64,000 nt of DNA from Anaerolineales bacterium (GTDB lineage: Bacteria; Chloroflexota; Anaerolineae; Anaerolineales; Villigracilaceae): assembly GCA_016934715.1 (NCBI GenBank), contig JAFGSI010000028.1, positions 186,001 to 250,000 of the forward strand. Direction: 5' to 3'. How positions within the stretch are numbered: the stretch's first letter is position 1; every line of letters starts with the position of its first letter. The notes under the pieces are model-generated. The model did no database searches. It had not been told where the DNA came from and saw only the letters and a list, made by a program, of their open reading frames with translations. The position numbers were made by a program, and so were the translations under genes. Below, piece after piece: positions 10,357 through 42,500 of the stretch.

Positions 10357-10637
10357 ATTCCAATTCAAAGGCGATGATGGGAACGAGTAGGCCTTGCGCC
10401 GCTGTCAGCGAGCCCGGGAGAGGTGAGAACCGGGCCAGCGAAAGGGGCCGAAAATCCTCCTGGAGCCGCGCGCTGAAAGCCACAGGCGAGTAAGTAAGCC
10501 GGAAGCCGACCGTTATACCGGCAGGGTATATGCCAACCTGGCCGTACCCGTGAGGGCCTGCCTTACCGGCAGGAAGCAGAGTGGTACCGCGTGAGCAGAC
10601 TGGCTCTCGTCTCTGGCCTGAGAGGCGAGGGTTTTTT
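10357..10637 (+). promoter_or_regulatory. Isoleucine T-box riboswitch (transcriptional)
   Basis: A T-box leader upstream of ileS. The start carries the Stem I-type motif GATGGGAACGAGTAGG; the canonical T-box AGAGTGGTACCGCG is at 10578-10591. A Rho-independent terminator follows: CTCTCGTCTCT (10604-10614) pairs with AGAGGCGAGGG (10621-10631), then six U residues at 10632-10637. The likely specifier is ATC (Ile) at 10454-10456 in a GAAAATCC context before CTGGAGC. By the known mechanism, uncharged tRNA-Ile stabilises the antiterminator and lets RNA polymerase read into ileS. The specifier placement is my inference; the T-box and terminator are direct reads. Confidence 0.93.
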
Positions 10638-10683
10638 CATGTCATTGCGAGACCAGGCTGTTAGACACCTGAATGGAGGTCGT

Positions 10684-13600
10684 ATGTCGTTCAAACCAGT
10701 ATCCCCCAGACTCGATGTGCCAGCGTTGGAAGAAGCCGTGCTCAAGTTCTGGAAGACCCACAAGGTCTTCGAAAAGACGATCGCGCAGCGCATAGGTGGG
10801 CCCGAGTACGTGTTCTTTGAGGGTCCGCCCACCGCCAATGGCATGCCAGGCGTCCACCATGTAATGGCGCGGGCCTACAAGGATATGTTCCCGCGCTACA
10901 AGATCATGCGCGGCTACCATGTTTCAAGGCGCGGCGGATGGGATACCCACGGCCTGCCGGTCGAGATCGAGGTCGAGAAGCAGCTTGGCTTCACCAACAA
11001 AGGCCAGATCGATGAATATGGCATCGAGAAGTTCAACGAGCTGTGTAAGAAGTCGGTCTTTACCTACATCCAGGACTGGGAACGGCTGACCGAACGGATC
11101 GCCTTCTGGGTCGACCTGGACGATGCCTACGTGACCTATACCAACGATTACATCGAGTCGGTCTGGTGGATCCTCAAGCAGCTTTGGGACAAGGACCTGC
11201 TCTACAAGGGCTACAAGGTCGTTCCGTACTGCCCGCGCTGCGGCACACCGCTCTCGGACCACGAGGTCGCCCTGGGTTATGCCGAGGCCGTCGATCCATC
11301 GGTCTTCGTCCGCCTGCCGCTGGTCGATACGCCCGGGACCTCGTTGCTGATCTGGACCACGACTCCCTGGACCCTGCCGGCCAATGTCGCCGTGGCGGCC
11401 CATCCCGACGTGGAATACGTCACTGTTGAGCGGCATCTGGAAGAAGGGGGCACGGAGAGGATGATCCTGGCCGCGGCACTGCTGGAGCAGGTCTTCCGCG
11501 GCGAAGAGGTCAAGGTGGTTGAGCGTTACAAGGGCAAGAGGCTCAAGGGCGTGAAGTATCAACCCCTGTTCACCTTCATGCCGCCCGAAAAGCCTGCCCA
11601 TTATGTGGTGCTGGGCGACTTCGTCACCACCGAGGATGGCACCGGGCTGGTCCACATCGCCCCGGCCTTCGGCGCCGAGGACATGCAGGTGGCCCAGGAG
11701 GTCGGCCTGCCGGTTGTTCTGACCATCGGCCCGGACGGCAGCTTCCTGCCCGAGGTTCGGCCGTGGAGCGGGGTCTTCGTCAAGGACGCCGACCCGTCCA
11801 TCACCGAGGACCTGCGCGCCCGCGGTCTGCTCTACCGCGCCGAGACCTATACCCACACCTATCCCTTTTGCTGGCGCTGTGATACGCCGATGCTCTATTA
11901 TGCTCGTGAGTCATGGTACATCCGTACCAGCCAGTTCAAGGATCGCCTGGTGGCGCTCAACCAGACGATCAACTGGGTCCCCGAGCACATCCGGGATGGC
12001 CGCTTCGGCAACTGGCTCGACAACAACATCGACTGGGCCTTGTCACGCGAGCGTTACTGGGGCACGCCGCTGCCGATCTGGGAGTGCGGCAAGTGCAAAC
12101 ACCGCGAATGTATTGGGGCAGTGGCCGAGATGTCCGAGAAGGCCGGGCGCGACCTGGCCGGGATCGACATGCACCGTCCCCACGTAGACAGGATCACCTG
12201 GGGCTGCCCCAAATGCGACGGGAGCATGCAGCGCGTTCCCGATCTGATCGACGTCTGGTTCGACTCGGGATCCATGCCGGTCGCCCAATGGCACTACCCC
12301 TTCGAGAACAAGGATCTCTTCGAGTCACAGTTCCCGGCCGATTACATCTGCGAGGCCGTCGATCAGACGCGTGGCTGGTTCTATACCCTGCACGCCATCT
12401 CCACCCTGCTGTTCGGTGAAATCTGCTTCCGGAATGTCATCTGTCTGGGTCTGATGGTCGATCGCAATGGGCAGAAGATGTCCAAGAGCCGCGGCAACGC
12501 CATTGACCCGTGGGAGATCATCAAGGCCGACGGGGCGGACGCCTTCCGCTGGTACATCTACACTTCCGGCCCGCCGAACTCCGAACGGCGCTTCTCCCCG
12601 GATCTGGTAACCCAGGTCGTGCGCGATTTCACCCTGACGCTCTGGAACGTGTACAGCTTTTTCGTCACGTATGCCAGCCTGGACGGGTGGACCCCGCCGG
12701 CGGTTGCTGGACGGCCGGTGGGCAGCGGCCCTTCGTCTGCTCTTGACCGCTGGCTGCTCTCGTCCTTGCACGCCCTGGTGCGCGATGTGACCCAGGCCTA
12801 CGAGAACTACGACGTCCCCGGGGCGACCCGTCCGATCGAAACATTCGTCCAGACGCTCTCGACCTGGTACCTGCGTCGTTCACGCCGCCGCTTCTGGAAA
12901 TCTGAATCCGACAGTGACAAGCAGGCCGCCTACGGTACGCTCTATACGGCCCTGGTGACACTGGCCAAGCTGCTCGCCCCGGCCATGCCCTTCCTGGCCG
13001 AGGATCTCTACCAGAATCTGGTCCGTTCGGTGGATGACAGCGCTCCCGAGTCCGTTCACCTGGTAGCCTGGCCTGAGTTCATGGCCGACAGTATCGACGA
13101 AGACCTGAACCGCGACATGGCCCTGGTCATGAAGGTCGTCTCGCTCGGGCACAATGCCCGCCAGAAGGCCAATCGCAAGGTCCGCCAGCCGCTGGCCGAG
13201 GCGGCCTTCTCGGTCGGAAGCGCCGACGAACGCACGGCCATCGCAGCTTACGCCGAGCTGATCGCAGACGAATTAAATGTCAAGCAGGTCCGCCTGCTGG
13301 ACACCAGCGGAGAGGCCGTTTCATTTGCTGTCAAGCCGCTGCCCAAGCAATTGGGCCAGAAATATGGGAACAAGTTCCCGGCCATCGCCAGGGCGATCAA
13401 TGCCATGGACCCCGATTCTGTCGCCAAGCTCCTGCTGGCTGGCGACCCGCTCCCGATCAGCGTCGATGGTCAGGAGTACGACATCCAACCCGAAGAGGTC
13501 GAGGTGCGGGCGATGGCCAAGGAAGGCTTCGCCGTGGCATACGAAGGAGCCCATGTGGCCGCCCTGGTTATCGACCTGACCCCCGAACTGGTCCAGGAGG

Positions 13601-13851
13601 GCCTGGCGCGTGAATTCGTCCGCCGGGTCCAGGATCTGCGCAAGACGGCCGAGTTGGACGTCGCTGACCGGATCCGGTTGTCCGTGGAAGCGACGCCCGG
13701 GCTGCAGGCGGCGATCGAAACCCATCGGGACTATATCACTGCCGAAACCCTGACCACCGCGTTGTCCTTTGCTGCCCCGCCCTCTGCGGCGGTGGTGACC
13801 GAGGATGCCTTTGATGATGAGAAGGTCAAAGTCGGGTTGGTCAAAGCCTGA
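10684..13851 (+). CDS. ileS: Isoleucyl-tRNA synthetase, type 2
   Basis: A 1055-residue class I aminoacyl-tRNA synthetase that charges tRNA-Ile. The HIGH-equivalent is PPTANGMPGVHHVM (about residues 46-60) and KMSKS is in GQKMSKSRGN near residue 598. The editing (CP1) domain lies between them, with TTTPWTLPANVA visible. Length and motifs such as GWDTHGLPVEIEVEK fit the eukaryote-like type 2 IleS, a class associated with reduced mupirocin sensitivity. I chose the ATG at 10684 (GGAGGT upstream) because the earlier in-frame ATG at 10639 sits next to the terminator U-run. Regulated by the upstream T-box. Confidence 0.96.
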   Translation: MSFKPVSPRLDVPALEEAVLKFWKTHKVFEKTIAQRIGGPEYVFFEGPPTANGMPGVHHVMARAYKDMFPRYKIMRGYHVSRRGGWDTHGLPVEIEVEKQLGFTNKGQIDEYGIEKFNELCKKSVFTYIQDWERLTERIAFWVDLDDAYVTYTNDYIESVWWILKQLWDKDLLYKGYKVVPYCPRCGTPLSDHEVALGYAEAVDPSVFVRLPLVDTPGTSLLIWTTTPWTLPANVAVAAHPDVEYVTVERHLEEGGTERMILAAALLEQVFRGEEVKVVERYKGKRLKGVKYQPLFTFMPPEKPAHYVVLGDFVTTEDGTGLVHIAPAFGAEDMQVAQEVGLPVVLTIGPDGSFLPEVRPWSGVFVKDADPSITEDLRARGLLYRAETYTHTYPFCWRCDTPMLYYARESWYIRTSQFKDRLVALNQTINWVPEHIRDGRFGNWLDNNIDWALSRERYWGTPLPIWECGKCKHRECIGAVAEMSEKAGRDLAGIDMHRPHVDRITWGCPKCDGSMQRVPDLIDVWFDSGSMPVAQWHYPFENKDLFESQFPADYICEAVDQTRGWFYTLHAISTLLFGEICFRNVICLGLMVDRNGQKMSKSRGNAIDPWEIIKADGADAFRWYIYTSGPPNSERRFSPDLVTQVVRDFTLTLWNVYSFFVTYASLDGWTPPAVAGRPVGSGPSSALDRWLLSSLHALVRDVTQAYENYDVPGATRPIETFVQTLSTWYLRRSRRRFWKSESDSDKQAAYGTLYTALVTLAKLLAPAMPFLAEDLYQNLVRSVDDSAPESVHLVAWPEFMADSIDEDLNRDMALVMKVVSLGHNARQKANRKVRQPLAEAAFSVGSADERTAIAAYAELIADELNVKQVRLLDTSGEAVSFAVKPLPKQLGQKYGNKFPAIARAINAMDPDSVAKLLLAGDPLPISVDGQEYDIQPEEVEVRAMAKEGFAVAYEGAHVAALVIDLTPELVQEGLAREFVRRVQDLRKTAELDVADRIRLSVEATPGLQAAIETHRDYITAETLTTALSFAAPPSAAVVTEDAFDDEKVKVGLVKA

Positions 13852-40072: not shown

Positions 40073-41020
40073 TTATTGGACTGCGCCCAGGTCGAGCGGG
40101 ACGCTCTTCAGCAGATCGTCCAGGATCGCCGCGGCGCTGTGGCCGCGCAGTTCCGCTTCGGGCCGAACGATCAACCGGTGGGTCAGGGTCGAGGGGACCA
40201 GGTATTTGATGTCGTCGGGGATCACATGCTCGCGCCCGCGCAGAGCAGCCAGGGCCTGGGCGGTTTTGAACAAGGCCAGGCTGGCGCGTGGGCTACCACC
40301 CAAGGTTAGGTCCGGATGTTCGCGCGTTGCGCTGACCAGGCGGATGATGTAATCCTGCAGGGTGTCGTCCAGGTGGACTTCCCAGACCTGGCGCTGGAAC
40401 TCGAGCAGTGCGCTCCCGTCCACTACCTGGCCGAGGGCGTTGATGGGATGCTCGCGCTGCAGGTGGGTAAGGAGTAACTTTTCGTCAGAAAAGGCCGGGT
40501 AGCCGATCTCCAGGCGCATCAGGAAACGGTCGAGCTGGGCCTCGGGCAGCGGGAAGGTGCCTTCGTATTCGATCGGGTTCTGGGTGGCCAGCACCAGGAA
40601 TGGGCGTGGCAGGGGCCGGGTGACACCGTCCACGGTCACCTGGGCCTCCTGCATGGCTTCCAGCAGGGCGGCCTGGGTGCGCGGGGTAGCCCGGTTGATC
40701 TCATCGGCCAGCAGGATATTGACGAAGATCGGCCCGGGACGGAACTCGAACTGGCCATTCTTCTGGTTGTAGATCGAGACCCCGGTTATGTCGTTGGGCA
40801 GCAGGTCGGGCGTGCATTGCAGGCGCTTGAATTGCCCGCCCAGAGTGGTTGCCAGGGAGCGGGCCAGCATCGTCTTGCCAACCCCGGGCACATCTTCGAG
40901 CAGGACATGACCTTCGCACAGCAGGGCCACCAGGAGCAGTTCGATGGCGGTTTGTTTGCCGATGATGACTCTTTCGACGTTTTCGGTGACAAGGGCTGCG
41001 AATTCCTGAACCTTTTCCAT
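40073..41020 (-). CDS. MoxR-family AAA+ ATPase
   Basis: A 315-residue AAA+ ATPase. Walker A is GVGKTMLARSLA, Walker B ILLADEINRATPRTQAALLE, sensor 1 FLVLATQNPIEYEGTFPLPE, and the sensor 2 region contains SPRASLALFKTAQALAALRG. The ATG at 41020 has CGGAGG 6 nt upstream; the frame open to 41119 crosses the tyrS promoter and is not used. First gene of the MoxR-DUF58-DUF4129 operon. Probably a chaperone-like ATPase paired with the DUF58 protein. Confidence 0.94.
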   Translation of the reverse strand: MEKVQEFAALVTENVERVIIGKQTAIELLLVALLCEGHVLLEDVPGVGKTMLARSLATTLGGQFKRLQCTPDLLPNDITGVSIYNQKNGQFEFRPGPIFVNILLADEINRATPRTQAALLEAMQEAQVTVDGVTRPLPRPFLVLATQNPIEYEGTFPLPEAQLDRFLMRLEIGYPAFSDEKLLLTHLQREHPINALGQVVDGSALLEFQRQVWEVHLDDTLQDYIIRLVSATREHPDLTLGGSPRASLALFKTAQALAALRGREHVIPDDIKYLVPSTLTHRLIVRPEAELRGHSAAAILDDLLKSVPLDLGAVQ

Positions 41021-41104
41021 GGATAGCCTCCGAGTTTCGATAAGCATATCATAATTTTCCGAAAAAACGGATGATAATGGGGTGTTAAAATTGCTGAAAT
41101 GTTG

Positions 41105-41110
41105 TATAAT
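41105..41110 (+). promoter_or_regulatory. -10 element of the tyrS leader transcript
   Basis: A perfect TATAAT at 41105-41110, exactly 7 nt before the leader-peptide ATG at 41118. The mRNA would begin at or next to that ATG, making it leaderless. No strong -35 is seen. Confidence 0.6.
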
Positions 41111-41117
41111 TGCGGTC

Positions 41118-41162
41118 ATGCTGGATCTGATCGCTTGCGGGTATTATTATTCCTGTCCCTAG
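41118..41162 (+). CDS. Tyrosine-rich attenuation leader peptide of tyrS
   Basis: A 14-codon open frame, MLDLIACGYYYSCP then TAG, with three consecutive TAT tyrosine codons at 41142-41150. It lies 7 nt downstream of a TATAAT box and just upstream of two mutually exclusive hairpins that precede tyrS. Clustered codons for the cognate amino acid are the mark of trp/his-type attenuation leaders. I infer that ribosomes stall at these codons when charged tRNA-Tyr is scarce. It was read from the sequence directly; a search of related genomes would show whether YYY is conserved. Confidence 0.8.
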   Translation: MLDLIACGYYYSCP

Positions 41163-41165
41163 CCA

Positions 41166-41211
41166 CCGCTGCGGACGAGTACCACGCGCCTGCCGCAGCG
41201 GGCGCGTTTTT
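41166..41211 (+). promoter_or_regulatory. tyrS attenuator: two alternative hairpins and terminator
   Basis: Segment A CCGCTGCGG (41166-41174) pairs perfectly with A-prime CCGCAGCGG (41193-41201). Segment B CGCGCC (41185-41190) pairs with B-prime GGCGCG (41201-41206), followed by TTTTTATTT (41207-41215 region), a Rho-independent terminator. B lies in the loop of A:A-prime, and A-prime lies in the loop of B:B-prime, so only one can form. A ribosome that finishes the leader peptide at 41160-41162 would cover A and allow termination; one stalled at the Tyr codons leaves A free to form the antiterminator. Confidence 0.82.
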
Positions 41212-41288
41212 ATTTGTGGATCTTTGGAATCGCAGGGCTTGCCCTGCATCCCCACCGGCACATCGGTGGAATCCGGATGGAGGCCTCC

Positions 41289-42500
41289 ATGAACATCGAT
41301 GAACAAGTCGCCCTCTTGATGCAGGGCACCGAATACGGCGACGAGGAATTGAAGCAGGCCATGGCCGATGAATTGCGCCAGCGCCTGATCGAAGCCGAGA
41401 AGGAGGGCCGCCAGCTGAAGGTCTACTGCGGCTTTGACCCGCGCACCTCAGACCTGCATCTGGGGCATACCGTTCCGATGCGCAAACTGGGCCAGTTTCA
41501 AGAACTTGGTCACGAGGTGACCTTTTTGGTCGGTTCGTTCACCTCGCTGATCGGGGACCCGTCAGACCAGGACATCTTGCGCCCTCGCCTGACCCAGGAA
41601 CAGGTCGAACAAAATGCCCAAACCTATGCCGAGCAGGCCTACCGGATCCTCGATCGCACGAAGACCAGGATCCGCTTCAATTCCGAATGGTTGTCAGAAT
41701 TGACCTTTGAGGAATTGATCGGTCTGGCGTCCAATTTCACCATCCAGCAATTCGTCACTCGCGAAAACTTTCGTAAACGCTGGGACAATGGCGACCCGCT
41801 TTACCTGCACGAGACCTTCTACTCGATCATGCAGGGCTTCGATGCCCATGCCTTGAAGGCAGATGTCCAGGTGGGGGGCACTGACCAGCTGTTCAATATC
41901 GTCACCGCGGCTCGCAAGATCATGTCCTCCCTGGGTGACAAACCTAACATAGCCATCATTCTGGGCATCCTGCCCGGGACGGATGGTGAGATCAAGATGA
42001 GCAAGTCGCTGGGTAATCACATCCCGCTGCTCTCAACCCCTGAGGACATGTACGGGAAGATCATGTCGGTGCCCGATAAGGCGATGGGCCGATTCATGCG
42101 CATGGTCACGCGCTGGCCCCCCGCACAGGTGGCCAAGATGGAGGCCGACCTTGAGGCTGGGGCTCTCCACCCTCGGGATGCCAAAATGGCCATCGCTCGC
42201 GAGATCGTCTCCGTCTTCCACGGTCCCGAAGTAGCCCTGGCTGCCGAGGAGGCTTTCAAGAAGGTCTTCCAGCAGAAGGATGTGCCCGACGACATGCCCG
42301 AGTATCTTCTTCGGCCTGGCCAGAATGTGCTGGACGTGCTTGCCGCGGCCGGGCTGGTGACCAGCAAGTCCGAGGCTCGGCGGATGATCGAGCAGAACGG
42401 CGTCCGACTGGACGGGAAGGTGCTCTCCGATGCCGGGGCGAATTTTCCGCATACGGGTGTGCTGCAAGTGGGCAAACGGCGCTTCGTGAGAGTCAAATAG
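41289..42500 (+). CDS. tyrS: Tyrosyl-tRNA synthetase
   Basis: A 403-residue class I synthetase that charges tRNA-Tyr. HIGH-equivalent is DLHLGHT (near residue 55), the tyrosine-binding and connecting blocks include FDAHALKADVQVGGTDQLFN, KMSKS is in GEIKMSKSLGNH, and the C-terminal S4 domain holds SKSEARRMIEQNGVRLDGKV. It resembles the TyrZ subgroup rather than E. coli TyrS. The ATG at 41289 has GGAGG 7 nt upstream; the frame upstream to 41214 is inside the attenuator. Expression is probably set by tyrosine-dependent attenuation. A terminator follows. Confidence 0.95.
   Translation: MNIDEQVALLMQGTEYGDEELKQAMADELRQRLIEAEKEGRQLKVYCGFDPRTSDLHLGHTVPMRKLGQFQELGHEVTFLVGSFTSLIGDPSDQDILRPRLTQEQVEQNAQTYAEQAYRILDRTKTRIRFNSEWLSELTFEELIGLASNFTIQQFVTRENFRKRWDNGDPLYLHETFYSIMQGFDAHALKADVQVGGTDQLFNIVTAARKIMSSLGDKPNIAIILGILPGTDGEIKMSKSLGNHIPLLSTPEDMYGKIMSVPDKAMGRFMRMVTRWPPAQVAKMEADLEAGALHPRDAKMAIAREIVSVFHGPEVALAAEEAFKKVFQQKDVPDDMPEYLLRPGQNVLDVLAAAGLVTSKSEARRMIEQNGVRLDGKVLSDAGANFPHTGVLQVGKRRFVRVK

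Follow-up and report, generated by a model that had tools for sequence, protein, structure and literature searches.

The tyrosyl-tRNA synthetase gene (tyrS) in the window, that is, the whole stretch of 64,000 nucleotides that was analysed, is very probably controlled by a ribosome-mediated transcription attenuator, which would couple tyrS expression to charged tRNA-Tyr. As read from the sequence, the switch has the defining features of a leader-peptide attenuator, with the exception of the trp layout of the shared strand, and a response to tyrosine shortage is predicted. Attenuation of tyrS by a Tyr-Tyr-Tyr leader had been proposed in a preliminary description of this DNA, and the proposal is supported by conservation in the family, by covariation and by folding with the ribosome masked. 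Four features are added here: a probably leaderless leader ORF, an antiterminator 3' arm (A') that is formed by the terminator loop plus the inner 3' side of the stem, a Pro codon before the stop in most leaders, and a second form in which the Tyr codons end a full-length gene.

The tyrS leader in the window and in the family

The features of the leader were listed in Table 1. The short ORF at 41118-41162, the hairpin coordinates, the U-run and the following tyrS, all of which had been given in the preliminary description, were confirmed by direct reading of the window sequence. Arms A and A' are each 9 nt long with perfect complementarity. The terminator stem (41184-41193:41198-41207) has 10 pairs, and the hairpin described earlier (41185-41190:41201-41206) is part of this stem.

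Table 1 Features of tyrS and its leader in the window
Feature	Position	Strand	Remarks
-10 box TATAAT	41105..41110	+	Leader promoter; predicted transcript start at most about 1 nt from the leader ATG
Leader ORF MLDLIACGYYYSCP-stop, 14 codons, probably leaderless	41118..41162	+	ATG at 41118, stop TAG at 41160-41162
Three Tyr codons, TAT TAT TAT, putative sensing codons	41142..41150	+	Read from the sequence
Pro codon and stop, CCC TAG	41157..41162	+	May hold the terminating ribosome on arm A
Antiterminator 5' arm A, CCGCTGCGG	41166..41174	+	Covariation with A'; masked by the stop-codon ribosome in the folding model
Terminator 5' arm	41184..41193	+	Sequence folding, family alignment
Antiterminator 3' arm A', CCGCAGCGG	41193..41201	+	Within the terminator loop and inner 3' side
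Terminator 3' arm	41198..41207	+	Sequence folding, family alignment
Terminator U-run, TTTTTATTT	41207..41215	+	Read from the sequence
tyrS Shine-Dalgarno, GGAGG	41279..41283	+	Read from the sequence
tyrS, tyrosyl-tRNA synthetase, 403 aa	41289..42500	+	ATG at 41289; Pfam tRNA-synt_1b

Relatives were compared for the same arrangement. tyrS was located in 135 of the 150 family genomes, and the upstream DNA was gathered and scanned. Among the 120 family genomes with readable tyrS upstream DNA (one row from outside the family was left out, and G112 was counted as a leader), a short ORF rich in Tyr and preceded by a -10-like box was identified in 96, the gene-tail form described below in 18, and neither form in 6. 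The pattern TATAAT-N5-10-ATG-N12-42-TAYTAYTAY gave a single match in the 4.09 Mb genome of the window, which was the tyrS leader itself. It was matched in 75 of the 150 family genomes, and in 65 of these 75 the match lay within 500 nt upstream of tyrS; by these sequence matches, the occurrence of the leader at tyrS is far beyond chance.

A total of 91 leaders were collected, including one (L042) that was afterwards discarded as false. Their ORFs have 12-17 codons with usually 2-4 Tyr, Tyr makes up 22.5% of the non-start residues, and the last Tyr is 3 codons before the stop in 65 of the 91. Both Tyr codons were used (TAT 192 times, TAC 83 times), so it is the amino acid that is conserved and not a DNA motif. 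The N-terminal halves of the peptides vary freely, and the C-terminal pattern Y-Y-Y-[STA]-[HR]-P-stop recurs in many leaders.

Outside the family, with sparse sampling of the other families of the order, no match of the Tyr-run pattern was tied to tyrS, and the leader appears confined to this family. The pattern MRTP.G.EC.YYY behind TATAAT, found in other families of the class (L344, L342, L346 and L353), was rejected as a tyrS leader and looks like a separate conserved protein. Ten tyrS loci without both forms (L041-L044, L046, L048, L049, L055, L059 and L108) were searched for a leader peptide and for a T-box at tyrS, and none was found.

The leader ORF is probably leaderless, as deduced from the position of its promoter. 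TATAAT was present before 93 of the 95 leaders that were classified automatically, one leader (L025) has CATAAT as its -10 box, and the -35 element is weak, a point against the switch model. Of 91 leaders, 67 have a spacer of 6 nt between the -10 box and the start codon, and the rest have 7-10 nt, with 7 nt in the window. If the -10 box is taken to end near -7, such spacers would put the 5' end of the transcript on the start codon or directly beside it. In the genome of the window, TATAAT-N5-9-ATG was matched 136 times against 11 times for the reversed control, and nearly all of the 30 loci that were read head long ORFs; this enrichment suggests that leaderless mRNAs are probably common in the lineage.

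Terminator, antiterminator and ribosome position

A terminator followed by a U-run was present in the 89 analysed leaders, with its helix 99% paired and its outer stem, ACGCGCC...GGCGCGT, nearly invariant in the family. Covariation was assessed in a MAFFT alignment of 63 distinct leaders, from which L156, with a different terminator, was left out. The two arms of the antiterminator change together, as in the A/A' pairs CGCTGCGG/CCGCAGCG, CTGTGGAG/CTCCACAG, GCGATGGTG/CACCATCGC and GCGAGGG/CCCTCGC. Pairing in the A:A' helix of the 63 leaders reached 92.4%, compared with 79.0 ± 1.1% after shuffling. Doubly changed cells numbered 77 (19.8 in shuffles), and the covariation score was 0.488 (0.274 ± 0.016 in shuffles); shared ancestry is retained in all of these shuffles. 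Double changes were observed in 5 of the 8 A:A' pairs, and controls with a slid register were 21-70% paired. In an alignment-free test in which 43 distinct loops were swapped, the mean pairing energy was -18.5 kcal/mol for own partners and -15.2 ± 0.45 kcal/mol for swapped ones, and none of 1000 swaps, which also retain shared ancestry, was as low as the own value. As grounds for refutation, the preliminary description had named relatives whose tyrS leaders lack a conserved ORF or Tyr codons, and covariation at odds with either hairpin. The proposal passed this test: 96 leaders and 18 gene tails among the 120 genomes provide the ORF and the Tyr codons, and both hairpins proved conserved, with strong covariation in the antiterminator.

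The strands follow in the order A, terminator 5' arm, A', terminator 3' arm, and A' corresponds to the loop of the terminator plus the inner 3' side of its stem. In trp-type attenuators the strand shared by both hairpins is the terminator 5' arm; this layout, a usual but not obligatory feature, was not found here.

It is very unlikely that the terminator merely ends transcription coming from upstream, with the tyrS promoter behind it and the short ORF incidental. In the window, the gene on the other side of the leader encodes a MoxR-type AAA ATPase and is divergent, so the terminator belongs to the tyrS 5' leader, and no plus-strand promoter-like site was found at 40500-41800. The terminator does follow an upstream gene in the genomes with the gene-tail form, and the intergenic space reaches about 200 nt in some relatives; in 24 of 87 leaders, however, it ends at most 40 nt before tyrS, which leaves little room for a second promoter. 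Conservation of the Tyr codons and of A:A' also argues against an incidental ORF.

The effect of ribosome position was modelled with the stop codon in the A site and the leading edge of the ribosome about 13 nt ahead. In this model a ribosome at the stop covers arm A, and a ribosome on the Tyr codons leaves A uncovered. For the window, the fold with A free and RNA up to 41201 gave A:A' at -19.5 kcal/mol, and the fold with A masked and RNA up to 41207 gave the terminator at -19.2 kcal/mol. Across the family, masking of A led to the terminator in 89 of 89 leaders, and with A free the A:A' pairing preceded the terminator 3' arm in 86 of 89, in agreement with the earlier claim that a stop-codon ribosome hides A and so permits termination. 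At full length and with the ribosome on the Tyr codons, 73 of 84 leaders nevertheless had the terminator as their minimum-energy fold, with a mean margin of 5.8 kcal/mol; readthrough must thus hinge on the order of co-transcriptional folding.

The end of the ORF could also pair with arm A. The pairing energy was -12.0 kcal/mol for own partners against -10.5 ± 0.2 kcal/mol for swapped ones, which retain relatedness, and the pairing was seen in the window fold too. A third, protective hairpin between the ORF end and A, absent from the simple model, is therefore possible in the modelled folds. Thus the two mutually exclusive hairpins of the preliminary description stand, and its claim of a two-state design without a third hairpin is weakened.

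Pro precedes the stop in 57 of 89 leaders, with all four CCN codons in use, against 11% of long ORFs at the same loci. A C-terminal Pro slows peptide release, according to a passage of PMC7246954 (citing Hayes 2002 and Pierson 2016). A ribosome that lingers at the Pro-stop may in this way keep arm A covered.

The anatomy of the switch, its conservation, the covariation and the conserved spacing are observations; from them we infer where transcription starts, that the ORF is translated, where ribosomes stall, in which order the RNA folds, and how termination and physiology respond, as follows. Transcription would start at or beside the leader ATG, and a ribosome would load on the leaderless transcript. 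When Tyr-tRNA is ample, the ribosome would reach the stop codon, where the C-terminal Pro may delay its release. Its footprint would then lie on arm A, the terminator would form, and transcription would end before tyrS. When Tyr-tRNA is scarce, the ribosome would stall 12-18 nt before the stop, at the Tyr codons, leaving A free to pair with A' once the latter is transcribed and before the terminator 3' arm exists. Since A' makes up the terminator loop and inner stem, A:A' would block the terminator and RNA polymerase would enter tyrS. In other genera, the same switch would be read by ribosomes finishing a full-length upstream gene with a terminal Tyr run.

The gene-tail form of the switch

Several of the tyrS genes that lack the short ORF lie behind a conserved gene for a protein of about 168 residues (L304-L333), which has no Pfam match and is often encoded directly upstream of tyrS in several genera. 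Its endings include YYARA, YYYSRS and YAYYSRA. The tail has two or three Tyr codons, three further codons and the stop; arm A comes next, and then a terminator whose loop contains A'. All 17 tails that bear an attenuator contain YY or YYY and share the Tyr-to-stop spacing of the leaders. In g3 genomes the sequence of the switch is quite different (GTTTTACGAC ... ACGCATCAC[GTCGTAAAAC]GTGGTGCGT). When partners were swapped among 16 tail cases, the own value was -12.8 kcal/mol against -9.7 ± 0.64 kcal/mol, and 0 of 2000 swaps, in which shared ancestry is retained, were as low.

There were 13 homologs without an attenuator: they lie elsewhere in the genome, have the promoter and leader of tyrS between themselves and tyrS, or simply lack the attenuator. 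In 12 of these 13 no YY was present, and the Y-S-R-type ending had just its one conserved Tyr. The exception is L321 (G023) with the tail SYYYSHV, where no attenuator was found between the tail and tyrS, possibly owing to a recent loss. As YY or YYY occurs only with the attenuator in nearly all homologs, the extra Tyr codons track the switch and not the protein.

Mapped on the tyrS tree, the three states require 13 changes. The tail state by itself requires 5, and well-supported branches force at least 4 of these; this is a quick tree, with one or two rows imperfectly labelled by the automatic procedure, and the changes are undirected. We consider it likely that one switch, in which the antiterminator captures the terminator loop, has two readers in related genera, a dedicated leaderless Tyr peptide and the C-terminal tail of a full-length gene that has extra Tyr codons solely where it directly precedes the tyrS attenuator, and that these were interchanged several times. 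If so, the tail of a protein-coding gene would also sense an amino acid on behalf of the gene that follows. Escherichia coli rph-pyrE is similar to the gene-tail form in that its intercistronic attenuator is governed by ribosomes translating the end of a full-length gene upstream, but it responds to pyrimidine nucleotides through the rate of transcription and not through a run of amino-acid codons.

The tails also bear on whether a nascent YYY...P peptide could act as an arrest peptide, stalling the ribosome through the exit tunnel or a ligand and not through uncharged tRNA-Tyr. Such arrest would suit the recurrent C-terminal pattern of the leaders and the slow release at a C-terminal Pro (documented in a passage of PMC7246954), but the peptide has just 12-17 residues with a freely variable N-terminal half, and gene tails with unrelated preceding residues keep identical spacing. 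In addition, a stall at the stop codon would cover A and lead to termination, so the Pro-stop suits the OFF state, and the regulated gene is a Tyr enzyme. An arrest peptide thus has a very low probability, and sensing of charged tRNA-Tyr by the translating ribosome is preferred.

Other leaders and relation to known systems

The T-box is the usual regulator of tyrS in Firmicutes. T-boxes were revealed in all 61 family genomes searched, with 8 in the genome of the window. The preliminary description had set the tyrS leader apart from T-box control, and this contrast holds: a search of 40900-41400 with the T-box model RF00230 gave no match at E up to 1. Control of tyrS at translation, by a tyrosine riboswitch or by a T-box, with the Tyr codons incidental, is extremely improbable, since T-boxes are indeed frequent in the family, one of them before ileS in the window, but no credible Rfam match was found at the tyrS leader even at the relaxed threshold, the structure is a terminator with a U-run away from the tyrS ribosome-binding site, and the stretch of about 45 nt between the stop codon and the end of the terminator is too short for an aptamer or a T-box. 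The attenuator and the T-box are alike in purpose, both giving more aminoacyl-tRNA synthetase when the cognate tRNA is uncharged, and they differ in that the T-box binds tRNA directly and was not detected at the tyrS of the window though present elsewhere in the same genome.

The T-box of the window was found at 10365-10617 of the plus strand, directly before the ileS ORF (10591-13851). Its score of 89.9 bits (E 7e-20) is just below the gathering score of 93, and it was missed by the default Rfam scan.

Leaders for other amino acids were also observed. Upstream of hisG (L359-L387, with L372 in the genome of the window), all 29 loci examined in the family have a short ORF with at least HH and usually HHH or longer, such as MQRICHLHHHHSTSPCQTGEQVRSA in the genome of the window (G000) and MKLTLALHHHHLLFPLPDQSAG, and many end in PLPDRSAG-like residues. 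These ORFs look like a his-operon attenuator with the putative start codon near a -10-like box. Other candidates were rejected. Leaderless Trp-run leaders in 61 genomes were mostly out of frame, and MNKLKWW, in two genomes of the genus of the window, is the start of a long ORF and not a leader. No convincing Phe-run leader was present in the match list. Of the candidates with a His run, L286 was rejected as a long ORF and L287 because no his gene was found, and L291 was retained.

The known examples of leader-peptide attenuation come chiefly from Proteobacteria and Actinobacteria, and the amino acids concerned are for the most part Trp, His, Phe, Leu, Ile/Val, Thr and Cys (in part PMC1262725). 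The tyrS switch resembles the trp/his/pheST type (Enterobacteria; attenuators of Streptomyces trpS and leuS, PMC1262725) in its ORF with cognate codons, its terminator and exclusive antiterminator, the logic of ribosome position, and an amino-acid gene as the target. It differs in the Tyr codons, the tyrS target, the apparently leaderless ORF, the position of A', which takes up the loop of the terminator and its inner 3' side and not its 5' arm, a 1:2 hairpin that is uncertain, and sensing codons that form the tail of a full-length gene in some genera. For the tyrosine operons of Actinobacteria, RNA control was stated to be absent (PMC1262725).

Two further systems are related by their start. 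One is the leaderless polycysteine short ORFs of mycobacteria (Canestrari et al. 2020), which a passage of PMC9094748 presents as a leaderless, amino-acid-responsive attenuator with cognate codons; by comparison, the tyrS leader belongs to another phylum, amino acid and target, and its terminator and antiterminator are explicit and covarying. Another is the uORF attenuator of Corynebacterium ilvBNC, for which a leader peptide without a ribosome binding site was reported according to a citing passage of PMC10272879, and which differs in its branched-chain codons, biosynthetic operon and structure. No Tyr leader for tyrS was found in the literature search, an absence that is no proof of novelty.

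For the family, these results mean that a lineage using T-boxes still keeps a ribosome-read tyrS switch in about 95% of the sampled genomes. The capture of the terminator loop and the bias to a Pro-stop suggest design rules for such switches, and the interchange between peptide and gene tail offers a testable route to the origin of leader peptides.
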